A DNA stretch of 20,818 nucleotides from a virus: the IMG/VR virus record IMGVR_UViG_3300013138_000063, positions 1 through 20,818 of that record. One strand, given 5' to 3'. How positions within the stretch are numbered: the stretch's first letter is position 1; every line of letters begins with the position of its first letter. The translations under genes were made by a program, and so were the position numbers. Positions 3,001 through 19,264 of this stretch are shown here, one piece after another. Below the pieces are notes generated by a model. That model was given only the letters and a program-made list of their open reading frames with translations, had not been told where the DNA came from and ran no database searches.

Positions 3001-5804
3001 GAATATTTTTCCCACGCTTTATTTTTTATGTCTCTGGCAACTTCAATGGCTTTATCGCTAATAGATGGGTCTCTGCCTATTGCCCGGTCAATCGCACTTA
3101 CGGCCGAATCAAAAGCCTGATTATATTTGTTGAGTGTCTGGTCTTTTTTCAGGTTCTTTCTGGATAGAAGATCATACTCATAATTACTCGTATCTTCCCC
3201 CAATTCATCCAGCCGTTTCAATAAGGCTTCCTCATCATCCATAATACTCTGATCGACTTCATTCAACGCCCGGCCAGTGGCTTCCTGTGCGTTGGCGCGG
3301 TCGGCAATCCTCCGTCTTTCGGTAATCGCCTGTCGCAATTCTCGCTTGATCGCTTCTGGATTATCAGCGTTTCTACGAACAATATCCAGAACAACATCGT
3401 CTAATTCAGCCTTGTGAAGTTCCGCTATCTGCTCCGGGGAAATAAAATCAGCCAGATCCACTTGCTTGCCAGATACCGTGTCGTTGATCGCCTTCCAGAC
3501 ATCCCCGAAGTTATCCCAGGTGCCGTTCTTGATTGCTTCAATTTGTGCGGGTGTGAAACCTGCGTCCGCTAAAATTCCCTGCGCATCGCGCATCATCACG
3601 CGCCACATCTTGCGCATTTCCTTATCCATTACCCTGGCCGCAAGCATCTTTGCCGATGCAGCCTCAACCTTACCATTCCACTTGCGAGAAAAAGCCATCC
3701 GATCCCAGATAGATTTTCCTTCAATCGTATTCTCAATACCCCCACCCTTGAAACCAATCGTTGCAAGATTACTGGCTCCCCATCCGTGTAATATCCGGTC
3801 TGCTCTGGCACCCGAATACTTGAAACCTCCTAGTAAGGCATCAGGATGATCGACTCCAATCTGGAACATATTGGTAAAATAGTTTCTGCTTGCAAACGCG
3901 GGGTTGATCCCCATAAAAGTAAAGGCGAAGAAATGGTTGATCGGCCCCACAAGGTTTTTCTGTACCGCTTCGTGGAATTTCAATATTCTAACCACAGCGG
4001 GATTAGGTGCTTTATCTGCCAGCCTGGATATAGCCACTGGTATATCCAATCCTTCACTCACCGCTTGACTGACCGCTTTGGCAATTTCCGCCTGTTTGGT
4101 AATCGAAGGATACATCGCCGCCGCGGCACCCTCAATTCGTTTCGATAATTTTTCTGTCAGGAAGGTCAGCGCGTTCGGGCCGTCATCCTTCACCTTTTCC
4201 AGCAGGTTTATAATTCCTTTGATATTGAACACGCCTTCCTGGTTGCTGAACATCCGCTTGAAACCAAGAAACGCGTCCAGCATATCATCGCCCAATAAAA
4301 CGCCGGCGTTCTCCATTCTGGATATTCTGGCAAGGGCTTCCAGCCGTTCAGCCGGTGTGCCGCTCACAATTTTCAGCATATCGTGAACCACACTACCAAA
4401 ATCATCCATTGTGCGGATTTCATGCGACTTCGCCAGTATTGTAAAGGCATCGTGCATCTTGTCTACAAGTCGGGCCTGCAACGCGGTGGAAACGGGAGAA
4501 AATATATTCCGTTGGGTGGCTTCTTTGATTTGTTCTGTGTTGCGTAACCGCACCCGTTCACCCACCCAATTGGACAATTTCTGTAATGGCGTTTCTGCTT
4601 TTTTGATTACCTTTGCAGAATCAACCACTTCATCCACACTAGAAATCATATTTGCCATTCCAGTGACATCATCCACCACGTTGGCAACATCTTCAACCGC
4701 GTTGACTCCTCTGGATACATCCTCCATTTGATTGATCGTTCGCGTAGCATCCACCAGCTTATCGGCTGCACTGACGGCGTTTTCTGCCTTTGCAACATCT
4801 TCGACCGCATTAACAGCTTTCAGCAAATCCGCGCCATCCTCGGCAATCGTCACGCCTTTGGAGGCAGCCTTCGCACCGCCCAGCATACCGCCTGATAACA
4901 GGTTCGTCGGATCTAAAATGCTCTGACCAAACGCTTCTGCCAATGGGTTTTGTAATTCCTGCATCAACAAGATAGGGTTTTCACCCGCTCTGTACCTGCG
5001 CAAGTATTCAGCCGTCAATCCTTCTTTGGCCACAGACGAATAAGCAATCCGGGAAGCTGCCCAGGATTCATACCAACTGATGTTTTCCCCCATCTGGATC
5101 TTATTCCCAACCGTTCCAATCAGCCTTTCTGCGCCATACCCCACATTCCCAAGCACTTCAAACGCGCCGCCAATAATATGCTTTACGGCTTTCAGTACAT
5201 ACCCAATTCCATAAGGCAGCGTCACCTTTTCGCCGTTTGTCCAAGCCCGACCAGCCGTAGCCAATCCTTCTCCAACGGTCTGCGCAATAGGAGAAAAAGC
5301 TTTTGTGGCATCCTCGCCAAAAGTACCGGTCTTATCAGATATAGCCACCCCGGCCTGTTTGAAAGAATCTGGAACAGTATCCCAATTTTCTTCCACGATA
5401 ATATCAATCGGGGTGGTATCTTTATTCTGGAAATCGAAAACGACATTTCCCCACCAGTTTTTCATGGCGTTTTCAACCTCTGACCAGAAGTTCGGATCAG
5501 GGTCTATATCTCCCCAATACGGCTTCCCGTACTGGTCAAACATACTGGCCATCCACTGTGAACCATCCAGCAACTTGATACTTGGCAGGGGTTCTCCGCT
5601 CATTCCCACAGTACCACCCGGCTTAAAATCCTCACTCACCTGGGTGGGATCAGTGACGGGTTTTTCAGGCTGCCCAATATCCGGGGTTTCTATTTGAACC
5701 GGCTGTGGAAGTTCCTGCTCCTGCGGTTTTTCAACCGGATTTGCGGACTGGATATTCTCCGAAAGAGTTTGCAGTATTTGCTCTAATGTGATTTTTTTAG
5801 CCAT
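1..5804 (-). CDS. Giant virion-associated (probable ejection/internal virion) protein, 3' end beyond window
   Basis: A single minus-strand frame stays open from the ATG at 5804 to the left edge: 1934 codons with no stop. The ATG overlaps the LysM gene stop (TAATG), so translation is probably coupled. Seen in the protein: a Pro/Glu-rich N-terminus (about residues 20-60); an Ala/Val/Asp-rich helical segment with a repeated VNAVEDVA motif (about 320-400); INPAFASRNYF at 633-643; a charged, helix-rich and probably coiled-coil stretch (about 780-1050); and an aromatic segment YPYQYWYSRTYANW starting at 1222. A P-x-F-x-x-RN motif followed by a YP-x-x-x-W segment recalls the large polyvalent proteins (LPD38-like) found in phage virion and ejection proteins; this is from memory and not verified. 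Position after portal and LysM genes fits a protein packaged in the head and injected with DNA, like T7 gp16 or the N4 virion RNA polymerase. No catalytic motif was identified. A tape measure is a less likely alternative. Open frame certain, role inferred. Confidence 0.75.
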   Translation of the reverse strand, partial: MAKKITLEQILQTLSENIQSANPVEKPQEQELPQPVQIETPDIGQPEKPVTDPTQVSEDFKPGGTVGMSGEPLPSIKLLDGSQWMASMFDQYGKPYWGDIDPDPNFWSEVENAMKNWWGNVVFDFQNKDTTPIDIIVEENWDTVPDSFKQAGVAISDKTGTFGEDATKAFSPIAQTVGEGLATAGRAWTNGEKVTLPYGIGYVLKAVKHIIGGAFEVLGNVGYGAERLIGTVGNKIQMGENISWYESWAASRIAYSSVAKEGLTAEYLRRYRAGENPILLMQELQNPLAEAFGQSILDPTNLLSGGMLGGAKAASKGVTIAEDGADLLKAVNAVEDVAKAENAVSAADKLVDATRTINQMEDVSRGVNAVEDVANVVDDVTGMANMISSVDEVVDSAKVIKKAETPLQKLSNWVGERVRLRNTEQIKEATQRNIFSPVSTALQARLVDKMHDAFTILAKSHEIRTMDDFGSVVHDMLKIVSGTPAERLEALARISRMENAGVLLGDDMLDAFLGFKRMFSNQEGVFNIKGIINLLEKVKDDGPNALTFLTEKLSKRIEGAAAAMYPSITKQAEIAKAVSQAVSEGLDIPVAISRLADKAPNPAVVRILKFHEAVQKNLVGPINHFFAFTFMGINPAFASRNYFTNMFQIGVDHPDALLGGFKYSGARADRILHGWGASNLATIGFKGGGIENTIEGKSIWDRMAFSRKWNGKVEAASAKMLAARVMDKEMRKMWRVMMRDAQGILADAGFTPAQIEAIKNGTWDNFGDVWKAINDTVSGKQVDLADFISPEQIAELHKAELDDVVLDIVRRNADNPEAIKRELRQAITERRRIADRANAQEATGRALNEVDQSIMDDEEALLKRLDELGEDTSNYEYDLLSRKNLKKDQTLNKYNQAFDSAVSAIDRAIGRDPSISDKAIEVARDIKNKAWEKYSKLLRRGTQELHGMIEKELKAIDDELSSGKISREMARIKKHNAWKKFYATKDSLNIKLRKELFSEIDGAFSELKKGYEGILTDDSLIIKARNGVEVCNQMDQVDKNYFAATGKMRIVKKPKISKNTERATELIQKAKDGNATQKEADELSDLAGVEKIDVNDADAVDDLIRKSGDNVGDEIAGGEAGEHIKNPTPEIPTQYDVAQETLPEVERTVNMIIDSLGNYVPKKPLALSATQQKALATFGKIISERMSTARATAMKISGAARKFTLLDYRDKRGIDALLAYVYPYQYWYSRTYANWFKRIVKNPWLGATYGRYRDYMEKLHAGMPEWYRYQVNTNELLGIDSENPLYFNLESTLNPLNGLIGVDFDDPQRRESAFGATVDGLGKFGPSVWTPISMAVALDYWIKGNPEAASTFAGRIVPITSAIKGASAMLGVKGNNPLITPAGLELDPLMLMQGGLSNYDRRRVGRTLGQMVNDGVITLEQADDAAYQQSGEIWNMALQYSVNNPEKPFYSQRGFSQAMGGVLGIGFKGRNTGDALIDKAYSEMNAIMLNRANMSPDKYSMAWQRLKERYPFMETVMLSRKSDEVRDEAYVWAVLNRIPPGSQDTIIESVGLNRSILNFFYDNKGMTGMAETDRMHLMAAALDIGIVLAVPDGTTSHEWAAVRARNSMLNRYSTDVFGADVKELVDQYYQVLGTREYSKAEMFLQQHPDVQNYLQYRQQVVLADPLLSKYYGGLDYLENYYRSMFYREAGEKFGAEIFGKLDGYYYLKDNGGDTEQYLRDFPEVKDYWNLKENYDGKIADAIEKAADLFPEQPKPLIRTDAQLNSVGAQDILKGISETTPDEDNAALLMKYQRKQSDNSTGNFSISAEIDRVAEERWPGILTKVENFKSMSMDTSTAPPILTPYLSKKATQYYNDNPDILAYEQFSKSMRNLYNSTVKGDFDQAEKYKQLVIMSQVDEYTYELIKLSDGNLPAVAVKLLTKIGQPFDMTWEEVL

Positions 5805-6565
5805 TAGAATTTCCAGGTATAGGTTCCAACAGAACCAAAGTATTTTGTCGGATCAACCGGTTCTGGCGGTTTTGGGTGATTCGCGTTATATCGATCAACC
5901 GACTCATGCTCCGCGCTGTAAATAATCTTCCCGTTCGGATCATAAATCACGTAATTCGCTCCAAGTTTGTACCGGTTCTGTTTATTCTGTTGCTTCTGTT
6001 GATTCTGTTGATTCTGTTGAGGCTTTGTAGACACAGTTCCTCCGGTGCCGTACTCCTGTTTTTTGAAGTCGGCCATATCGACACCGCCTACCGCACCGGT
6101 GCCGTACTCCTGTTTTTTGAAGTCGGCCATATCGACACCGCCTACCGCGGCTCTCCACGCATCATACTGCGCCTGATACCTTTGGCTATCAGTGACAGCT
6201 GTTTTTGCTTGCGCGGCTCTCCACGCATCATACTGCGCCTGATACCTTTGGCTATCAGTGACAGCTGTTTTTGCCGACTGGTAACCAAGACCCTGACGCA
6301 TAAAAGCGTTTTGCTCTAAAATATCTTTTCGATTTGTAAACGGTTTTGTTGCCAACGCTTCCCACGCGTTCCACTGTCCGCCCGCAAGATACGGAGGATT
6401 GGTTGGTTGAGAAGGCTGCGCGTAATAATTCGGTACTCTAATAATCAGGCCCGGCGACAGTATAGAAACTCCCGGATTCCCGGCCTTCAACTGTGCTACC
6501 GTCACCCCGTACTTCTGTGCGATCGATTCCCAGGTATCCCCGGTCGTTACTTGTCTGTCCGGCAT
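5804..6565 (-). CDS. LysM-domain virion-associated protein
   Basis: 253 aa. Residues about 4-46 form one LysM module (TTGDTWESIAQKYGVTVAQL, then NPG and an IIRVP end), a peptidoglycan/chitin-binding fold. The rest has no recognised enzyme domain: a Tyr/Trp-rich middle, two exact tandem duplications (22-aa and 18-aa units), a Gln/Asn-rich stretch (about 183-197) and a C-terminal part ending in GTYTWKF. The start is the ATG at 6565 behind GGTGAGGTGA. It lies between portal and the giant virion gene and is coupled to the latter by a TAATG overlap. LysM modules in phage virion proteins usually help engage the cell wall during entry or tail/baseplate function; with no catalytic domain here, a wall-binding or structural role is inferred. 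Confidence in the LysM call is high, in the exact role low. Confidence 0.85.
   Translation of the reverse strand: MPDRQVTTGDTWESIAQKYGVTVAQLKAGNPGVSILSPGLIIRVPNYYAQPSQPTNPPYLAGGQWNAWEALATKPFTNRKDILEQNAFMRQGLGYQSAKTAVTDSQRYQAQYDAWRAAQAKTAVTDSQRYQAQYDAWRAAVGGVDMADFKKQEYGTGAVGGVDMADFKKQEYGTGGTVSTKPQQNQQNQQKQQNKQNRYKLGANYVIYDPNGKIIYSAEHESVDRYNANHPKPPEPVDPTKYFGSVGTYTWKF
6042..6148 (-). repeat. Exact 54-bp tandem duplication inside LysM gene
   Basis: Two in-frame copies start at 6042 and 6096 (period 54 bp). They encode the 18-aa unit VGGVDMADFKKQEYGTGA twice. Identity is complete over the copied stretch, which suggests a recent duplication. Confidence 0.95.
6147..6274 (-). repeat. Exact 66-bp-period tandem duplication inside LysM gene
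   Basis: Two copies of a 62-bp identical stretch start at 6147 and 6213 (period 66 bp, 22 aa). They encode the unit beginning DSQRYQAQYDAWRAA twice. This duplication abuts the separate 54-bp duplication. Confidence 0.95.
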
Positions 6566-6647
6566 TGTTCACCTCACCCATTATTTCTTGTACATAGAGT
6601 CGCGCTTCCAGAATATCAATCAGCATCCGCTTCCTAGAATCCGACAT
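6438..6647 (-). CDS. Possible small gene overlapping portal end and LysM start
   Basis: 69 aa, beginning MSDSRKRMLIDILEARLYVQ. The ATG at 6647 sits just behind a strong ribosome binding site (GGGAGGT, 4-nt spacing) inside the last portal codons and overlaps the portal by 14 nt. The first 27 codons fill the gap between portal and LysM and look like an amphipathic helix. The remaining codons run out of frame over the 5' part of the LysM gene. Without this gene the gap would be an unusually good ribosome binding site serving nothing. It could be a real overprinted protein, or a short coupling ORF that carries ribosomes to the LysM start. No homologue recognised. Confidence 0.35.
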   Translation of the reverse strand: MSDSRKRMLIDILEARLYVQEIMGEVNNAGQTSNDRGYLGIDRTEVRGDGSTVEGRESGSFYTVAGPDY

Positions 6648-8415
6648 CCTGACCTCCCTGCGTCATGCCAGTCTGCATTTCCCTGGTCATTTCCGGGTTC
6701 ATCATCTGCGCCGGTATTCCCCCTTGATTCGGGTCAAAACCGATCCCGTTCGCAGGGTTCTGCTGCATCGGCGCATTATTCGCCATCTGGTTCAACTGCT
6801 GTTGTTGCGTTTGCAAAGCCATCTGCTGTTGTTGCGTTTGCAAAGCCATCTGCCCCTTTTGCTGCATCAAGGCCAATTCTGTCTGCAACATCGCCTCCCG
6901 CACCTTTTCCTTATCCGAAATACGCATCGCCCGCGAAGGATCGGTCACGCCAATTTCTTCCAGCGCGTATTCTTTCGGGAAACCAAGCTGCATCGCCATT
7001 ACCGCGGCATTGATCTTCTGCTGTCTGTCTGTCGCAACATCCGGGGATAGTTCAACCGTCAAATTTAATCTTTCAGGTAAAGATTTTGGATCAATCAACA
7101 TCTGTTTTCCAAACGTATCTTCGGCCCGCTCGTTATAAAACACAGCGGAACCATTGTGTCTGATCCACTTGAAGAACAATTTACAAATATCCGCGCTGAC
7201 CTGCTCCGCCAACTCCCGGTACTGTCTGATTTTCGCCACGCCCGTCTGAATCGACATATTGTACGTTGCAAAATTCACGTTCACCGGCGTATTTCCTTCG
7301 GTCATCATCCGCGGCAAGGTGCTTTTAGACATGGCTTGCGTCAGTAAATTCAGTGCGGTCGGTATATTCGGATCAACTGGCTCCACAGGGATACTTTTAT
7401 AGTCCACTCCCTGTGGTAAATCCACCCTTCCGCCCGGTGTCATGTAATCAAACTCCACCATTTCACCGCCCGGCCCCTGAAATATGTGTCTGGGTGCCGC
7501 GGCTCTGGCGATCATATCCGATATCAACAAACTTTGTGCGATATTTACCGTCTCCCAATCCCCCGAATGATAAATAGGCGCCAGTAAAGGACTGACCTGA
7601 TACTGTGGGTCGGTATCCAGGGTCGTTCCACCCACTCTACACGCCCACGGCATAAACGGCAGACCGTGATCTTCGTCTACAATCTTGTAAGTCGCTCCCC
7701 CACCGTACCCATCCTCTGACGCCCACACCACTTTCCGGTCAATATCACAATACTCATAAATATATAAATCGTCATTCATAGTAGACGGGTTATTCTCGTT
7801 CACTCTGGAAGTAATTTCCTTCGCAGCCTTCCCGTAAAAGTTAATCACGTCCGCCACTTTCCACTTACTGACATATAAAATCTGCTCTGGTACAATATCC
7901 GAGTAATTTACATGCACATCTTTGGGGTGACGCACGGTAACAATCCAATCTCCGTACTCATCCCTGGCGTTCTTCCAGCGTTTTTCTTCCCCAGGTCTTT
8001 TGGCGATCTTTTCCTGCCACGGTAAATACGTTACCTGGGCAGCGACCATATCATACAGAATCGCCGACCGCATCAAATCCCTGATTACAGACGTTCTTCG
8101 TCTCAACGAAGCATCCTTCAAACACAACCCAAGATACCTCTCCCACGTTTCCGCCTGATCCTTGTTCGCATCATCATCCGCCAAAGGAACAATCTTGATC
8201 CTCGGATCCAAACCAGAAAATATCTGAATCGCCGTCTGTACCGCATCCCTGGGATCTGAATTTTTCACCGTCCGTATCCACTTATACGACTTCAACGCCG
8301 GCGGTAATTCCCACTTCACATGGTACATATCATCCATCTTCGAGAACAACTCATTCCTTTTTGAGTCGTTCATAATCATTTCAGACGCTAATCCTGTATA
8401 GTATGAAAATTCCAT
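6634..8415 (-). CDS. Portal protein
   Basis: 593 aa, the usual size of a phage portal, the dodecameric ring at one capsid vertex through which DNA is pumped. The gene follows TerL with no gap: TerL's TAA is directly followed by this ATG, and GGGAGG within the last TerL codons serves as ribosome binding site. Visible features are a portal-like mixed N-terminal half (for example AVQTAIQIFSGLDPRIKIVP and repeated tryptophan/tyrosine segments), a central helical region (about 340-420) compatible with the stem, and a Gln/Met-rich low-complexity C-terminus (about 510-593) with a duplicated MALQTQQQQ unit. No MuF domain is fused. The call rests on position next to TerL, length and general look; no single diagnostic motif is claimed. 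Confidence 0.8.
   Translation of the reverse strand: MEFSYYTGLASEMIMNDSKRNELFSKMDDMYHVKWELPPALKSYKWIRTVKNSDPRDAVQTAIQIFSGLDPRIKIVPLADDDANKDQAETWERYLGLCLKDASLRRRTSVIRDLMRSAILYDMVAAQVTYLPWQEKIAKRPGEEKRWKNARDEYGDWIVTVRHPKDVHVNYSDIVPEQILYVSKWKVADVINFYGKAAKEITSRVNENNPSTMNDDLYIYEYCDIDRKVVWASEDGYGGGATYKIVDEDHGLPFMPWACRVGGTTLDTDPQYQVSPLLAPIYHSGDWETVNIAQSLLISDMIARAAAPRHIFQGPGGEMVEFDYMTPGGRVDLPQGVDYKSIPVEPVDPNIPTALNLLTQAMSKSTLPRMMTEGNTPVNVNFATYNMSIQTGVAKIRQYRELAEQVSADICKLFFKWIRHNGSAVFYNERAEDTFGKQMLIDPKSLPERLNLTVELSPDVATDRQQKINAAVMAMQLGFPKEYALEEIGVTDPSRAMRISDKEKVREAMLQTELALMQQKGQMALQTQQQQMALQTQQQQLNQMANNAPMQQNPANGIGFDPNQGGIPAQMMNPEMTREMQTGMTQGGQDVGF
6796..6849 (-). repeat. 27-bp tandem duplication in portal C-terminus
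   Basis: Two identical 27-bp units (6796-6822 and 6823-6849) encode MALQTQQQQ twice in the Gln-rich tail of the portal protein. It is a third in-frame duplication within about 800 bp. Confidence 0.9.
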
Positions 8416-9969
8416 TTAGCCTCCCAAAGCCAAAAACGGGTTCATCGTTTTTCTTTTCTCCACCGATGGTAATTCATCATAATTCATCGGTACAACCAGC
8501 ACATCCGGCATACCGCGTAACGCCCAGTACACCGCATCCATCGCATCATCGTGCCGGTTATTCGGGTATTCCCTCAACTCTTTCCGCAGCTCATTCAAAA
8601 ACGGCGTATCTGCATCCGATATTCTTACACGCATACTTTCCAACCACGGCCCCATCTGCCTTTCTAACCGCTCCATCTTCCCCTTACCACCCGTTTTCAT
8701 CGGTGTGATCTTCAACCCAGGCTTCAACATCAATGCCTGTATAAACTCTTCCCCTTTTCCATCCCCCTCAACTACACAATGCAGCCACCCGGGAAAAGTA
8801 TTCTGCGCCTTCTCCACATACCCCAAAGCCGGTAACATGGTCGTTCTCTCCAATACCCCATCCATCACCACCGCACCGCCCATCGGCATCTTACACACAT
8901 ACGCCAGCGCAAAGTAATCCGTATCCGACTTCACCGCTCCCCCTACATTCCTCATCGAAGAAGCATAATCCACCCCGCCTACAATCGGCCAACTCCCATT
9001 GATCTGTGAAGCAGGAAAGTCATACCACCTGAATACCTGACTATCTGCTTTACTCAAATCCAATAAGTACATCCTCGCAAATTCAATCTTCGCGGACATC
9101 GCCCGCCGTACCTTGATCTCTGCCTCTGGAAACCGAGACGGCCATACACTCTTATAAAACACCCCGTCCATCTCAAACCCTTCCGCACACTCATTTACAA
9201 TCGGCGTCTTTACCCTGATAAACTCATCTAACTCCGTCATCCCCATCACCGGATCATTCTCTTTCCACGGCGTAAATACACAACACAACCAGGCACCCTT
9301 TACAATCGTAGGAAATAAAGTACCCGTCATAATCTTCCTGACCGTCTCCATCTCCTTATCACTCGCCGTATTATTCTCATCCAAAATATCATCAATCAAT
9401 AACATCCCAGTAACACGCTTCCCAATAATCGCCCGGCTCTTATACCCTAACCCAATAAACGTAGGGTCTTTCCGGTCTGAATTGAGCCTGCGCCACTGCC
9501 CATACGGTATATCATCCCGCTTTACCTCATACCCACCCGCTCCCCATCCCTTCTCCATATCCGGTACTACATTCGGAAAACAACTCTTCCACCCTGGGTT
9601 ATTCGCTATGATATCAGCTACCTTCTCGGAATTATCCTGCGCTATATCATCCCCTACCTGTATCGTCAAATACGTCTTTTCAGGCTCTTGCCCAATCCGA
9701 AAACATAAAAACGCCGTCAAAACAGTCGTCTTTGCACTCCCACGAAACGCCTCTATCGCAAAATACTTCCCCACTTCACGCGCTTCATACAACTTCTCTA
9801 TCCACCCACGCGCAAACCGCGTCAACTTCCTCCCCGTTATTACCTCAAAGAACGCCCCAAACCCCTCTACGTTATCATTCTCCCTGGCTACCACAGACAA
9901 TAATAACTCCTCCGTTGCCTTGATCTGCTCCGGAGTCAATGTGCTGATGTATTGTTTGATCTCTTCCAC
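8416..9969 (-). CDS. terL: Terminase large subunit (ATPase-nuclease)
   Basis: 517 aa, the normal size for TerL, which powers DNA packaging and cuts the concatemer. The N-terminal ATPase has a deviant Walker A at 75-82 (FRGSAKTT, lysine K80, alanine where many have glycine) and a Walker B at 189-194 (MLLIDD). The C-terminal RNase H-like nuclease shows three acidic clusters: D334 in VGGVDYASS, E401/D403 in VVEGDGKG, and D474/D475/D478 in NNRHDDAMDAVYWAL. The start is the GTG at 9969: the frame upstream has no ATG, GTG or TTG before a stop, and the ribosome binding site is weak. It is the first gene of the leftward late operon, directly followed by the portal gene. Confidence 0.95.
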   Translation of the reverse strand: MEEIKQYISTLTPEQIKATEELLLSVVARENDNVEGFGAFFEVITGRKLTRFARGWIEKLYEAREVGKYFAIEAFRGSAKTTVLTAFLCFRIGQEPEKTYLTIQVGDDIAQDNSEKVADIIANNPGWKSCFPNVVPDMEKGWGAGGYEVKRDDIPYGQWRRLNSDRKDPTFIGLGYKSRAIIGKRVTGMLLIDDILDENNTASDKEMETVRKIMTGTLFPTIVKGAWLCCVFTPWKENDPVMGMTELDEFIRVKTPIVNECAEGFEMDGVFYKSVWPSRFPEAEIKVRRAMSAKIEFARMYLLDLSKADSQVFRWYDFPASQINGSWPIVGGVDYASSMRNVGGAVKSDTDYFALAYVCKMPMGGAVVMDGVLERTTMLPALGYVEKAQNTFPGWLHCVVEGDGKGEEFIQALMLKPGLKITPMKTGGKGKMERLERQMGPWLESMRVRISDADTPFLNELRKELREYPNNRHDDAMDAVYWALRGMPDVLVVPMNYDELPSVEKRKTMNPFLALGG

Positions 9970-10074: not shown

Positions 10075-10312
10075 ATAACGACGTTATTGAGCGAATAGGT
10101 GTCGTATGAAAACTTGGAGAAAAAAATAGGGTGGTAAACGTGCGCACTGCAAGCCAACGGTCTTACCAAGCGTACTACCAACGTGCCCCTACCCTACCGG
10201 CCATGCTGAATTTGCCATGATATTCTGACCATGCTCCGGCTGCATAGGGGTACACACCCCCTGAACGCTGATAGAAACACGCGCAGCTCCGGTCGCATGC
10301 GACACTGACAGG

Positions 10313-10447
10313 ATGTACAAGGTTTCGATAATGTCAATTATCGAAAGCAAGAACGCCGGGAATACCGGGATCCTGTATACCCCCGGGGAGTATATTGCAT
10401 GGGGTGTTGAAGTCTCACGCAGAATGTATCAATGTATCAATGTATAG
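10313..10447 (+). CDS. Doubtful 44-aa ORF in the control region
   Basis: ATG at 10313 to TAG at 10447, beginning MYKVSIMSIIESKNAGNTG and including ILYTPGEYIAWGVEVSRRMY. The amino-acid mix looks protein-like, but the only purine-rich sequence (CAGG) touches the ATG, and the frame runs through two palindromes and into the TGTAT repeats. It may be a small gene, a decayed one, or chance. No family recognised. Confidence 0.2.
   Translation: MYKVSIMSIIESKNAGNTGILYTPGEYIAWGVEVSRRMYQCINV
10323..10346. other. Perfect inverted repeat, 10-bp arms
   Basis: TTTCGATAAT and ATTATCGAAA flank a 4-nt GTCA centre. There is no T-run on either strand, so it is not a typical terminator. Candidate operator or origin element. 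Confidence 0.8.
10376..10394. other. GC-cored inverted repeat
   Basis: TATAC-CCCCGGGG-A-GTATA: a near-perfect dyad 30 bp beyond the larger palindrome. Function unknown; candidate protein-binding site. Confidence 0.55.
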
Positions 10448-10478
10448 ATGTATAGTATCCCATTGTATAGATGTATAG
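10423..10478 (+). repeat. Iteron-like TGTAT array
   Basis: TGTAT occurs at 10425, 10433, 10441 and 10449 (exact 8-bp period), then at 10464 and 10472. The second half of the array is a 17-bp direct repeat (10439-10455 and 10462-10478) with one mismatch. Candidate initiator- or regulator-binding iterons upstream of the clamp-like gene. Confidence 0.7.
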
Positions 10479-10561
10479 CCCGTCTATCGCGCTGACTACC
10501 AACACTAGTGCGATCTATACCGTCGTGGATTAAGACGAATGTCATACCGAAACTATTACAT

Positions 10562-10597
10562 TTGACACTATACCCGGCGCAAACAAAAAATTATACT
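10562..10597 (+). promoter_or_regulatory. Possible rightward promoter of the clamp cassette
   Basis: A consensus TTGACA at 10562-10567 and a TATACT at 10592-10597 precede the first cassette gene. The 24-bp spacing is too long for a standard sigma-70 promoter, so either these are not partners or the promoter needs an activator. Confidence 0.3.
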
Positions 10598-10638: not shown

Positions 10639-10725
10639 ATGGATACTACAACGATCATAACTCTTGCAATAGCGATCTTGCTGGTTGCATATTTTACAAT
10701 CAATTTATTACAATCCAAGTTATAA
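10639..10725 (+). CDS. 28-aa single-pass membrane peptide
   Basis: The protein starts MDTTTIITLAIAILLVAYFT and ends in LLQSKL. It is almost entirely one hydrophobic helix (about residues 5-24). The ATG follows a clear ribosome binding site (ATAGGAGAAAATC). It is the first gene of the rightward cassette, 37 nt upstream of the clamp-like gene, and the two share leader sequence (GATCATTCAG versus AATCATTCAT). Function unknown; short single-pass peptides in phages may affect the envelope or exclude other phages, but nothing here shows which. Confidence 0.6.
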   Translation: MDTTTIITLAIAILLVAYFTINLLQSKL

Positions 10726-10762
10726 GATAAGAATAATCATTCATCAGAGAGGATTAATCATC

Positions 10763-11530
10763 ATGTTAGAAACAACAACAAAGATTAATACTGTAACAAA
10801 GATCGACCTAAGTTCAATCGAACAAGTAATTAGGGTTACCGCCGGCCGTAAGAAATTTAACGATATACCAGCAATGGAATATGGTAGATTAGTTAGATTA
10901 TCGCTCGATCAATACGGTTATCACGTCGGTTCTACTGGTACGGATGGTTATCGCGTACATCGCTATTATGATAACGAACCAGTAGTAGAATATGTTTTAA
11001 TCCGATCTGAACTTGCATCCATGATGCTAAAATCCAAGACTGCGCCGTGGAGCTATTATAACGGCCGTATATCCGATGGGGTATCGGAGTATCCGACATG
11101 TGATGGTGTGGTATATCCTGATACCGATTCTTGGATTAACTCGTGGACTGAAAAGTTTTCCGATACAATCTATATCGACTATCACATGTGCAATAAAATT
11201 TTTACTCTTGCAGAGGTATATAGTCGTAGTAAGGGTATACATGCCTTTGTTATTGATATCACCGATACGTCAATTAATATTGACGTTGTATCGTATGATG
11301 GGGCTTACCGAACCGACTTTACGCCGGTTGCTATGAATGCCTTATCATTACCTATTCCCGATCTATTCGCACATAACCCTTGCAAATTCATAATCAACGT
11401 TAAGTATATACGTGATGCACTGAGGATAAAAGGTAATTATAAAATGAATTATTGTAGTGACAATCCAAATGCTCCGATTGTTATTAATATAAATCATTTC
11501 AAGGCGCTTATCATGCCTATACGATCATAG
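10763..11530 (+). CDS. Sliding-clamp-like protein with DnaN domains II and III only
   Basis: 255 aa from the ATG at 10763, which follows AGAGAGGATTAATCATC; the frame opens earlier (10685) but that start has no ribosome binding site. Landmarks match bacterial beta clamp (DnaN) in order: TDGYRVH at 60-66 (DnaN domain II has TDGHRL), followed by VLIRSELASMML; YPDTDSWI at 118-125 (DnaN has FPDYxxVIP at the II-III border); NVKYIRDAL at 212-220 (DnaN N-x-x-YL-x-DAL); and the C-terminal LIMPIRS (DnaN VMPMRL). By my recollection of E. coli DnaN (366 aa, TDGHRL near 172), spacing from the motif to the C-terminus agrees, so the missing part is domain I. A two-domain subunit would have to close a ring as a trimer (like PCNA), pair with another protein, or act as a decoy or inhibitor of the host clamp. 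Homology is read by eye. Confidence 0.7.
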   Translation: MLETTTKINTVTKIDLSSIEQVIRVTAGRKKFNDIPAMEYGRLVRLSLDQYGYHVGSTGTDGYRVHRYYDNEPVVEYVLIRSELASMMLKSKTAPWSYYNGRISDGVSEYPTCDGVVYPDTDSWINSWTEKFSDTIYIDYHMCNKIFTLAEVYSRSKGIHAFVIDITDTSINIDVVSYDGAYRTDFTPVAMNALSLPIPDLFAHNPCKFIINVKYIRDALRIKGNYKMNYCSDNPNAPIVININHFKALIMPIRS

Positions 11531-11538
11531 ACACGTGC

Positions 11539-11606
11539 ATATGGTAACCCGTAGGGGGCGGGTTATTAATAATCAAATAACCATATAAGAGAGGATGGTA
11601 ATTATG
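11539..11606 (+). promoter_or_regulatory. Structured 5' leader, copy 1
   Basis: AACCCGTAGGGGGCGGGTT (11546-11564) forms a 6-bp hairpin with a TAGGGGG loop. Downstream, ACCAT (11580-11584) can pair with ATGGT (11595-11599), placing the AGAGAGG ribosome binding site in the loop. ATATGGT (11539-11545) can instead pair with ACCATAT (11580-11586). The same module, with identical 58-nt distance to the ATG, precedes the next gene. Confidence 0.65.
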
Positions 11607-11981
11607 AAAGCCATAATCAACGTACAAACCGAAAACGATCTAGAAGCCGAGGTACAGGATATGATTAACAATCAGGGATACGATGACTTTGCTACGTTTA
11701 TACATGATCTAGAATATGGTGGGTGCAAGTCAGGAATCATAGACGGTTTGATTACGTATGCAGATACCTCAGCATTTTACGATCGGCACGAAGATGACAT
11801 TAAGGTTCTGCTGGATTATACCATGAAAGCCTACGGGTATAACTGCATATTGGACATGATCGCCGGGGTGGATTTGCTGGCGCAGACAAAGTATTCTAAA
11901 AACATGTTGGCATGGTTCGCCTTTGAAGAGACATGTAATACCCTTGCGGTCCGGCTGGAATGCGATCCAAAGTTTCACTAG
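11604..11981 (+). CDS. Conserved-looking phage protein of unknown function (125 aa)
   Basis: Starts MKAIINVQTENDLEAEVQDM and ends near NMLAWFAFEETCNTLAVRLE. The start at 11604 is chosen over 11595 because AGAGAGG (11588-11594) is well spaced from it and directly abuts 11595, and because the next gene has the same arrangement. The protein is acidic, soluble and mostly helical, with no membrane segment. The pattern of an N-terminal (V/Q)TENDL start, a central TYADTSAFYDRHEDDI segment and a C-terminal LLAWFxFEE-like motif recalls small uncharacterised phage/plasmid proteins (I think DUF7222), from memory only. No catalytic motif seen. Lies in the clamp cassette behind a structured leader. Confidence 0.75.
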   Translation: MKAIINVQTENDLEAEVQDMINNQGYDDFATFIHDLEYGGCKSGIIDGLITYADTSAFYDRHEDDIKVLLDYTMKAYGYNCILDMIAGVDLLAQTKYSKNMLAWFAFEETCNTLAVRLECDPKFH

Positions 11982-11985
11982 CAAT

Positions 11986-12046
11986 AACCCGTAGGGGGCG
12001 GGTTCCAAATAAATTTATAACCATATCAGAGAGGATGGTAATTATG
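11986..12046 (+). promoter_or_regulatory. Structured 5' leader, copy 2
   Basis: It repeats copy 1: the same AACCCGTAGGGGGCGGGTT hairpin (11986-12004), a 22-nt AT-rich spacer of equal length but different first half, and the same ATAACCATAT plus AGAGAGGATGGTAATT before the ATG. The ACCAT/ATGGT pairing with the ribosome binding site in the loop is kept; the upstream ATATGGT is absent. Confidence 0.65.
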
Positions 12047-12466
12047 TCAGCATTTGTCGTAAATAAAAAACACGTTTTAGAAATTGTTAGGTTCTTGGAA
12101 AACCACGGGTCAGAACTTGGTAACAGAATTACAGTTTCCGGGGTTGATTATTCTACCTGCAATAGCCATGATCTATTAACTCTATGCAATATTTTATATG
12201 CAGAAAACGTCCGTTCCGTATGCTATAAATATAGCGACGAGCGCGCGGAAACATACGGCATAATCGATACCTATACTTCTGTGGCGGAGACAATCAGCCC
12301 GGCACAGTGTATTATGTCTTTGAGATGCCTTGATTACCAGTCTTGCGAAACTGATGACTGGGAGACCACCGGCGCAAAACATATTATTGACCTGATAGAG
12401 TATGTAGCTATTAATCGTTTGATCGGTAAAGTACAAATGGAAAAGCTGGAATGGGAATTAAGATAA
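12044..12466 (+). CDS. Conserved-looking mobile-element protein of unknown function (140 aa)
   Basis: Starts MSAFVVNKKHVLEIVRFLEN. The frame opens upstream at 11960, but the leader module and AGAGAGG point to the ATG at 12044. It contains ENVRSVCYKYSDERAETY and, later, a CLDYQSCETDDWE segment. Proteins with an MSAF(I/V)V start, ENVRSV and YQSCE motifs occur widely in plasmids and prophages as uncharacterised proteins; this is from memory. Soluble, mixed alpha/beta, no membrane segment, no identified active site. Function unknown. It shares its leader with the gene before it, so the two are probably controlled together. Confidence 0.75.
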   Translation: MSAFVVNKKHVLEIVRFLENHGSELGNRITVSGVDYSTCNSHDLLTLCNILYAENVRSVCYKYSDERAETYGIIDTYTSVAETISPAQCIMSLRCLDYQSCETDDWETTGAKHIIDLIEYVAINRLIGKVQMEKLEWELR

Positions 12467-13288: not shown

Positions 13289-14164
13289 TTATAACTGGTC
13301 GCCGGGGCTGTATCGTGCCGCCAGCCGTAGATCGTCCTCGGTCTGCTTTAAGTATCTGCGCAGGATTTGTAGATCAGCATGACCCATTAACAATTGCAGG
13401 GTATAAATATCCATCCCGGAACGCAAGCAGTTTAATGCGTATGACCTCCGGAAGGCGTGGGGATACCAAACCCTGATTTTAGCCCGCTTGCATAGTCGGG
13501 CCAGTAAGTGCTGAATACCGCCGCTTGTGTAATAGGTTCCATAGCGATTGACGAATAGCGCCGGGTGGGTGTCGGTTCTGGTTTCCAGATATAGGCGCAC
13601 CGCTTTTCTTGCAGCGGATCCCAAAAACACCTTCCGGGGCTGATGGTTTTTCGTGTCTGTAAGCTGGGTCTCCCCGGAGATGGCATCATATTGTAGCCGG
13701 GTGAGTACAGACCATTCCCGCGCCCGGATGCCAGTATCGTATAGAAAAAGAATGATAGCTTTTTCTTTGACGTTCGCTATTGATAGTAGACTTTTGATAT
13801 CCGAGATTGGCACCGGGTCGAGCCGTTCAGGAACAGGATTTTTCAGCCTGATCTTACGGATCGCCGTAGTGTGATCGGTTTCCAATTCGTACCAGCGTAA
13901 AAATGACCGCATACACCGGAATGCCGCATGAACGCCCCCAGGATTATGGCTCTTTTGCAGGTGCAGGATGTACTCTCTCAAAACATCCGCGGATAACTGA
14001 TCCATGTCATAGATGCCGTGATCCTCGCACCAGTAAACCCAGGGTAGCAGTTTCTTCGTGTAGAAGTTGATCGTTCCGGGAGATCTGTCGAGTAGAGATC
14101 GTAAATAAGATTCACAGAATAAAATAATCCGTTGCTCCAAAATGGTATGTTCCGTCAGGGTCAT
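13289..14164 (-). CDS. int: Tyrosine integrase
   Basis: 291 aa from the ATG at 14164 (MTLTEHTILE), preceded by GGGGG 6 nt upstream; a longer form from 14194 is possible but would run through an attP arm repeat. The N-terminal SAM-like core-binding domain spans about residues 5-105 and the catalytic domain about 118-285. Catalytic residues visible in 291-aa numbering are R147 in TGIRARE, a lysine near 172-178 in TKNHQPRK, H236-x-x-R239 in HAFRRS, H262 in LMGHAD and nucleophile Y271 in LRRYLK. It catalyses phage integration and, with a directionality factor, excision. attP lies directly upstream. One arm-type repeat covers the ribosome binding site, so integrase binding could limit its own synthesis. 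Confidence 0.95.
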   Translation of the reverse strand: MTLTEHTILEQRIILFCESYLRSLLDRSPGTINFYTKKLLPWVYWCEDHGIYDMDQLSADVLREYILHLQKSHNPGGVHAAFRCMRSFLRWYELETDHTTAIRKIRLKNPVPERLDPVPISDIKSLLSIANVKEKAIILFLYDTGIRAREWSVLTRLQYDAISGETQLTDTKNHQPRKVFLGSAARKAVRLYLETRTDTHPALFVNRYGTYYTSGGIQHLLARLCKRAKIRVWYPHAFRRSYALNCLRSGMDIYTLQLLMGHADLQILRRYLKQTEDDLRLAARYSPGDQL

Positions 14165-14170
14165 TTTATA

Positions 14171-14354
14171 CCCCCATATATACGGAATATCCACTGTGTG
14201 ACCCCCACATATACGGCTTTTTTTATTGTGGCGAGGGTGGGATTTGAACCCACAACCAATGGCTTATGAGTCCACTGCTCCACCGTTGAGCTTTTTGCGT
14301 ATAGTATTGCGTATATATGGGGGATAGTCATTGTGTACCCCCCATATATAGCGG
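14171..14354. other. attP: attP: tRNA core flanked by arm-type repeats
   Basis: Four copies of a CCCCCATATATACGG-type sequence flank a tRNA fragment: 14171-14185 (CCCCCATATATACGG), 14202-14216 (CCCCCACATATACGG), 14309-14323 (inverted, GCGTATATATGGGGG) and 14339-14354 (CCCCCATATATAGCGG). Three of them are preceded by similar sequence (TCATTTTATA, CACTGTGTGA, CATTGTGTAC). The arrangement, two copies on each side of a core and next to int, is that of integrase arm-binding sites. Confidence 0.8.
14229..14291 (-). other. 3' fragment of a tRNA-Met(CAT)-like gene (attP core)
   Basis: Read on the minus strand it has a D-arm (GCTC-AACGGTG-GAGC), an anticodon loop CTCATAA with anticodon CAT, a T-arm (GTGGG-TTCAAAT-CCCAC) and the 3' acceptor strand CCTCGCC plus discriminator A. 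The 5' acceptor strand (expected GGCGAGG) is missing; ACGCAAA stands there instead. It is therefore not a working tRNA. Phages that integrate in the 3' part of a tRNA gene carry such a copy so the host gene is rebuilt. CAT could denote elongator Met or Ile2. Confidence 0.85.
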
Positions 14355-14675: not shown

Positions 14676-15035
14676 TTATAAACTCGTCTTGATCCCATAC
14701 CTGGCCAACACCGCAGAGATGATCGCCTTGCCCGCTTCACTGGTCGGGCTGATGTTGTGCGCCTCGCAATCCGATAATGCGTCCTGGATGGCTGTACTAA
14801 TTAATCCAGACACAGAATCTTTAATATCCGAGGAAAACAGCACCGAATGAACCGCAGGTAATTTCTTCTCGATTGCCCAGATGGTCTCTACCGAGGGTGT
14901 CATATCTGGATATAGCAGGTAGCGATTCACAATTGATTGTTTCAATCCAAGCCATTCAGCAAACTCTGATTTGGATTTTTTCGTATCACCACGCCACTTG
15001 ATAAACTCATTCAATAACCACGTTCCGAATTTCAT
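14676..15035 (-). CDS. CI-like repressor, helix-turn-helix
   Basis: 119 aa. Residues about 18-60 (KKSKSEFAEWLGLKQSIVNRYL, then MTPSVETIWAIEKKLP) form a Cro/CI-type helix-turn-helix. The C-terminal half (about 65-119) is a small helical region ending VLARYGIKTSL, without a LexA/CI peptidase Ser-Lys dyad that I can see, so RecA-dependent self-cleavage is unlikely. It is transcribed divergently from the early operon across a region with TACTA-type dyads. The start ATG at 15035 has GGAAG upstream. Likely the lysogeny repressor of the rightward early promoter. Confidence 0.8.
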   Translation of the reverse strand: MKFGTWLLNEFIKWRGDTKKSKSEFAEWLGLKQSIVNRYLLYPDMTPSVETIWAIEKKLPAVHSVLFSSDIKDSVSGLISTAIQDALSDCEAHNISPTSEAGKAIISAVLARYGIKTSL

Positions 15036-15065
15036 TCTTGGCTTCCATCATTAACATTATCACGA

Positions 15066-15127
15066 TTGTACTAATTTTACAAGTGGTACTAAAAACTATT
15101 GACATGATAGTAGTACTATGTTACTAT
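15066..15127. promoter_or_regulatory. Divergent operator and rightward early promoter
   Basis: A consensus plus-strand promoter: TTGACA at 15099-15104, 17-bp spacer, TACTAT at 15122-15127. The spacer contains the 13-bp dyad ATAGTA-G-TACTAT (15107-15119), so a bound repressor would block polymerase. Two further GTACTA elements lie at 15068-15073 and 15086-15091, the first inside a TTGTA/TACAA dyad. On the minus strand TTGTAA (15082-15077) and GATAAT (15061-15056), spaced 15 bp, may form the repressor's own promoter. Confidence 0.75.
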
Positions 15128-15161
15128 ATAACCAATTATTCATGAAAGGAGATCGTATCGA

Positions 15162-15368
15162 GTGATTAATTGTAATCGCATCCCACAGGGGACAACCAGA
15201 CAGAATGTGTACCAATTCATTGTAGACCATCCAAACAGTTCCCTGGATGAAATAGCCGCGGGTGTGGGAATTACGAAAACACCAGTCAAGTACCACGTAA
15301 ATTGTCTGATCAGCGAGGGGAAGATTTCTAACATCCCCGGGAAACACCGCTCATTGAAGGTCGTATGA
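15162..15368 (+). CDS. Small winged-helix DNA-binding protein
   Basis: 68 aa with a GTG start behind AAAGGAG (10-nt spacing). TTRQNVYQFIVDHPNSSLDE, then IAAGVGITKTPVKYHVNCLI and EGKISNIPGK, is a complete winged helix-turn-helix like the ArsR/MarR or LexA N-terminal type, and nothing more. First gene of the rightward early operon, it occupies the position of Cro and may be a second regulator of the divergent operators. It overlaps the following gene by 4 nt (ATGA). Confidence 0.8.
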   Translation: MINCNRIPQGTTRQNVYQFIVDHPNSSLDEIAAGVGITKTPVKYHVNCLISEGKISNIPGKHRSLKVV

Positions 15369-19112: not shown

Positions 19113-19264
19113 TCTGGGTGATGATTACTATTCTGGTTTCTTCCATAGCGTGTGCGGTCGTTTTTGAGAAGGCGTATAAAAACGGCTATCGGGACGGGAA
19201 ACAATCTGGATATGATATCGGCTATTTTGAAGGCTATACCTTCGGTAAAACGAGAAAACTATGA
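19109..19264 (+). CDS. 51-aa membrane-anchored protein with Gly-Tyr repeats
   Basis: MIWVMITILVSSIACAVVFE is one membrane helix; the rest contains GY-x(6)-GY-x-x-GY-x-x-GY-type repeats (residues 26-43) and a basic end KTRKL. ATGA overlaps on both sides place it firmly in the operon. C15 is in SSIAC, but the position does not make a convincing lipobox. Glycine-tyrosine repeats of this form occur in short membrane-linked proteins that self-associate; function unknown. Confidence 0.65.
   Translation: MIWVMITILVSSIACAVVFEKAYKNGYRDGKQSGYDIGYFEGYTFGKTRKL

Follow-up and report, generated by a model that had tools for sequence, protein, structure and literature searches.

A divergent DnaN-like phage protein without clamp domain I and its possible roles

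What would a phage do with a sliding clamp protein that begins at its second domain? The window analyzed here, which is the whole of a 20,818-base phage contig, carries an open reading frame of 255 aa, intact from its ATG to its TAG, in which an earlier note recognized four landmarks of bacterial DnaN. The translation placed all four as described: TDGYRVH at aa 60-66, YPDTDSWI at aa 118-125, NVKYIRDAL at aa 212-220, and LIMPIRS at aa 249-255, the last of these being the C-terminus. DnaN (phrog_947, TIGR00663) and the phage protein have in common the order of domains II and III, the cleft motifs, and the C-terminal anchor. However, DnaN has three clamp domains per subunit, while the phage protein is without domain I.

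The clamp gene lies between TerL and the integrase block in a rightward cassette encoding, in order, a 28-aa membrane peptide, the clamp-like protein, a DUF7222 protein, a 140-aa protein, and an HTH protein (Table 1). It is oriented opposite to the leftward portal (6634-8415) and large terminase (8416-9969) genes, and the cassette is separate from the early/replication operon, which runs rightward from 15.1 kb and encodes an AAA_24 protein, a DnaD-like helicase loader, and a 3′-5′ exonuclease. This gene order agrees with the earlier description of a self-contained rightward cassette outside the replication operon. The leader upstream of the ATG is common to the next two cassette genes, and the start is unchanged in a near-identical contig (L001/L006); the start is therefore not an artefact of truncation. 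The membrane peptide directly upstream is likewise unchanged in the twin contig L006. A 62-base intergenic repeat (11545-11606 and 11985-12046; copies 87% identical, stem AACCCG-CGGGTT) carries the ribosome-binding site and start codon ahead of two of the cassette genes. It was found nowhere other than in this phage and its twin contig, and it matched no Rfam family.

Table 1. Coordinates of the clamp-like gene, its parts, and neighboring features in the window.
Feature	Position	Strand	Basis
Promoter-like TTGACA-18-AAAAAT ahead of cassette	10562..10591	+	Consensus match only, weak
28-aa predicted membrane peptide MDTTTIITLAIAILLVAYFTINLLQSKL, cassette gene 1, own ribosome-binding site	10639..10725	+	Prediction
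Ribosome-binding site AGAGAGG of clamp gene	10746..10752	+	Motif also precedes next two cassette genes
DnaN-like protein, domains II and III only, 255 aa	10763..11530	+	ORF, family matches, block profile, model and Foldseek
Clamp domain II, about aa 10-120	10790..11122	+	Alignment and model secondary structure
TDGYRV, cleft (E. coli T172, G174, H175, R176, L177)	10940..10957	+	Alignment
YPD, cleft residue P242	11114..11122	+	Alignment
Clamp domain III, aa 134-255, order b-a-b-b-b-b-a-b-b-b complete	11162..11527	+	Model secondary structure
NVKY, cleft residues N320 and Y323	11396..11407	+	Alignment
LIMPIR, cleft residues V360, M362, P363, M364, R365	11507..11524	+	Alignment; duplicated in frame in relative L001
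DUF7222 gene, next in cassette, probable start 11604	11604..11981	+	Pfam E=4e-18
Cassette gene, 140 aa, without assigned function	12044..12466	+	ORF; Pfam and PHROG searches
Integrase	13289-14194		

Several sequence comparisons point to DnaN. At E=0.001, the best PHROG match was PHROG_947, the DNA polymerase processivity factor family; aa 53-254 aligned to profile positions 165-364 of 368 and were collinear up to the final residues. The only other PHROG match was phrog_12598 (E=0.15). The sole NCBIfam match, TIGR00663 (dnaN), was weak (E=0.05; 12.5 bits, below the curated cut-off of 137.65) but agreed in register with the PHROG_947 match, pairing aa 118-254 with positions 241-366 of 367. Identity to phage and bacterial DnaN is about 15%. 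A profile of five blocks, picked from DnaN conservation alone and held to family-like spacing, scored 14.3 on the protein, while 20,000 shuffles had a mean of -50.9 (sd 9.4) and a maximum of -4.4; when 1,194 real ORFs were scored, the ones that came within 12 bits of it were short DnaNs and its own relative. Other searches were less telling. Pfam returned no DnaN domain (PF00712, PF02767, or PF02768) even at E<1, phmmer found no match in the PDB, and plain hmmsearch with custom profiles built from 12-56 DnaNs gave borderline scores. A genome-level search with phrog_947 also missed this record, even at E<=1, which we attribute to the prefilter of that search. On these sequence comparisons, assignment of the protein as a remote, highly divergent DnaN homologue is well supported.

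Structure prediction, one of the checks suggested in the earlier note, yielded two clamp domains when DnaN sequences were supplied and none from the single sequence, for which AlphaFold returned an unfolded chain (pLDDT 33.6). Aligned with 38 viral DnaN segments, the protein was modeled as two clamp domains (pLDDT 70.5, pTM 0.72), of which domain III has all the clamp-domain strands in order and domain II has most of them. Strands 7-8 of domain II were compact and uncertain, with pLDDT below 50 at aa 104-117. In a Foldseek search the top 50 PDB matches of this model were all DnaN (E~5e-11, TM 0.68), evidence that is partly circular because the DnaN alignment supplies the fold. Membership in the PCNA family was rejected, given that neither PCNA nor gp45 was among these 50 matches.

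A domain I encoded nearby in another frame would have spoken against a reduced clamp. A domain I profile run against every frame of the window gave no convincing match, and a frame-shifted or upstream domain I was accordingly rejected. Taken with the homology results, this upholds the view that a DnaN-type clamp has been cut down to domains II and III. The absence of domain I from the gene is well supported. The lack of domain I, the ribosome-binding site and leader, and the identical start in the sister contig together argue for a dedicated domain II-III form and not a broken DnaN.

The cleft between domains II and III has been kept better than the rest of the protein. The DnaN alignment has 47 columns with conservation of 85% or more, and the phage protein matches 12 of them; by the cleft residue list of PMC11139829 (E. 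coli numbering), it matches 8 of the 15 cleft columns but 4 of the remaining 32 (Fisher p=0.009). Three further cleft positions carry conservative substitutions (L177V, V360L, M364I), while L155, R152, R246, and V247 are replaced by E39, P36, S123, and W124, respectively. The cleft is presumed to be functional. The four helices expected to face the inside of a ring have a net charge of +9 in a protein whose overall net charge is -1. By permutation, this charge bias gave p=0.002 with generous helix ends and 0.10 with strict ends.

A phage clamp without domain I was expected to be unusual. This expectation did not hold. In a tblastn search of phages with E. coli DnaN, the match began only at domain II in many records. 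These short fragments, of 171-192 aa, consist of domain II and the C-terminal half of domain III and retain the cleft motifs. Sodalis SO-1 gp7, used as query, matched 275 records, and in 254 of these the match covered 80% or more of the query; a few of the records may hold full-length DnaNs. Examples are GQ502199 gp7 (L015), NC_004333 gp15 (L115), and NC_025458 S141_43 (L118), among about 250 phage records with fragments that start at domain II. They are filed as phrog_3007, "RusA-like Holliday junction resolvase," yet match phrog_947 and, weakly, PF02767, and the labels given by depositors include "DNA Pol III b subunit fragment" and "possible moron." The fragment gene is solitary or belongs to a small cassette, oriented against head or tail genes, in Dhillonvirus, Skatevirus, Klebsiella VLCpiS13a, Bcep781, and Shewanella 1/41; in Serratia Eta and BcepC6B it is found among replication genes. 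These results point to fragments starting at domain II as a large group of phage proteins that has been overlooked and misnamed and is often encoded by accessory genes.

The phage protein resembles these phrog_3007 fragments (Sodalis SO-1 gp7, Bcep781 gp15, Dhillonvirus, Skatevirus, Vibrio 1.098) in starting at domain II, and they too have cleft motifs (TDGxR, FPD, FNxxY, MPMR) and are often solitary, opposite-strand genes among structural genes. They differ in having about half of domain III and in being far nearer to bacterial DnaN, whereas our protein exceeds 200 aa, has a complete domain III in the model, and has no phrog_3007 profile match. Other short phage clamps also count against rarity. 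Bacillus phage Sam46 has an annotated 217-aa "PolIII beta-like processivity factor" (gp53), a short DnaN-type fold that the model matched in Foldseek (E=2e-9, TM 0.67 on target) at 15% identity. T4 gp45 is a two-domain phage clamp that forms a trimer (PMC9690074). Close relatives of the 255-aa protein came down to a single copy, 98% identical, in IMG/VR, with none in searches of phages, plasmids, and genomes. A TerL scan of genomes gave no match, and the host was not found.

Comparison with related phages bears on whether the gene is needed. The sister phages L003 and L007, whose TerL is 91% identical and which also share portal, integrase, AAA, and DnaD genes, have other small ORFs at the cassette position and no DnaN that could be found; the replication programme that these phages have in common therefore does not need the clamp gene. 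Its accessory status is well supported, and we regard it as a gene of the moron type, which has a leader of its own and may also have a promoter of its own. No member of a DNA polymerase family was found in four related records, which may be incomplete, so these phages probably use host Pol III.

The clamp gene is also changing quickly. Relative to L006 it has four amino-acid changes, one silent change, and a 27-base duplication that repeats the C-terminal strand in frame. Across 16 other unrecombined genes there are two amino-acid changes in total (clamp gene faster, p=0.0003). Among the changes in the clamp gene, V65L and W124C affect residues of the cleft. At L001:5785-5837, the counterpart of window positions 11500-11530, a 26-base tandem duplication and one inserted C at the 3′ end of the gene jointly give ALIMPYTIKALIMPIRS and preserve both the frame and the C-terminal MPIRS. 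Strong positive selection on the gene was considered and rejected, as the counts are tiny and the non-coding DNA just upstream has also diverged (13 substitutions in 10200-10530); this indicates a fast-changing locus in which positive selection is unproven. Elsewhere in the comparison with L006, two HTH genes, one repressor-like and the other the small gene that follows it (14676-15368), have diverged strongly between nearly identical flanks, probably reflecting a swapped immunity region. At 5804-6565, a LysM-like N-terminus is followed by two distinct short tandem duplications, AKTAVTDSQRYQAQYDAWRA and VGGVDMADFKKQEYGTG, that differ in copy number from L006.

With regard to function, we tentatively favor, at a little short of an even chance, a cleft-bearing DnaN fragment that engages clamp-binding host proteins and is not a processivity ring of the phage. 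Such a DnaN-derived protein would have lost domain I and kept domains II and III, above all the cleft between them. The cleft would hold proteins with clamp-binding motifs, such as the clamp-loader delta subunit, Pol III alpha, other polymerases, ligase, and mismatch-repair proteins, and binding of these presumed partners may divert or tune the host replication machinery. The delta subunit is a good candidate: it binds the beta monomer about 50-fold tighter than the dimer (PMC11139829), and an E. coli clamp that was monomeric but had a functional cleft seemed to be dominant-negative (PMC3022782). Among the other proteins of the window, a search for clamp-binding motifs turned up a single weak match; this was QVAML, within the 155-aa protein at 19261. 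This reading is favored because the half-domain forms in other phages keep the cleft without a full second domain, and because the gene is dispensable and fast-changing. Similar considerations lean toward the proposed non-ring state, namely that the gene is accessory, that the cleft is preferentially retained, and that the shorter forms are unable to make six whole domains. Counting against a cleft decoy are the retention of two whole clamp domains, more than a bare cleft requires, the positive helices that would line a ring, and the several changed cleft positions. In addition, the DnaD-like loader and the lack of a detected phage polymerase make dependence on host Pol III probable, so a strong clamp poison could hurt the phage too.

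The main rival is a homotrimer in which two-domain subunits form a six-domain ring on the PCNA/gp45 plan, loaded by the host loader. T4 gp45 and PCNA have two clamp domains per subunit, and the phage protein has two in the model, with strands 7-8 of domain II left unresolved there. Its positive inner helices would suit a ring, and in the alignment the hydrophobic pair V152/Y153 falls approximately where DnaN has its interface residues I272/L273. A bacterial clamp form of the same make-up is E. coli beta*, a UV-inducible short DnaN of about 26-29 kDa that consists of domains II and III and arises from an internal start within dnaN. It was reportedly described by Livneh and co-workers in 1996, and offers a precedent for a domain II-III clamp of which the phage protein would be the counterpart. 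Unlike beta*, which is produced from inside dnaN, the phage protein has a separate gene with its own ribosome-binding site and no upstream dnaN part. Closing a trimer would, by homology, require that strand 8 (about aa 107-113, VSEYPTC), which forms the free edge of domain II, pair with domain III of a neighbor, but this strand is short, contains a proline, and is where the model has its lowest confidence. The sister phages lack the gene, and the charge signal varies with the choice of helix ends. On balance we consider a trimer rather unlikely.

A heteromeric cap is quite improbable. The domain II edge would here dock on domain III of host DnaN and leave a five-domain open ring that can be neither loaded nor kept closed. 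Such a cap follows from the head-to-tail geometry of clamps and fits the accessory setting, but it depends on the same weak edge strand as the trimer. To much the same degree we doubt that the gene is a relic of a phage or host dnaN decaying under relaxed selection. The excess of changes over the 16 other genes and the duplication would fit decay; yet the frame is intact in both contigs, the duplication spares frame and MPIRS alike, the ribosome-binding site and leader are clean, and the cleft is preferentially retained. Least probable, and indeed very unlikely, is a chance resemblance in a short phage protein of another fold, which the empty Pfam search, the unfolded single-sequence model, and the borderline custom scores would allow, but to which the two top family matches, both DnaN and in one register, and the failure of any of 20,000 shuffles to reach the block score are opposed.

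Phage proteins made of clamp pieces may either be cleft decoys that redirect host replication partners, as we favor for the protein described here, or in some cases form trimeric rings from DnaN domains. PCNA has been noted to align with domains II-III of DnaN (PMC8357120). Such rings, if true, would bear on the relation between dimeric and trimeric clamps, and the present protein would then be a separately encoded natural counterpart of beta* that bridges the plans of the bacterial dimer and the PCNA trimer.
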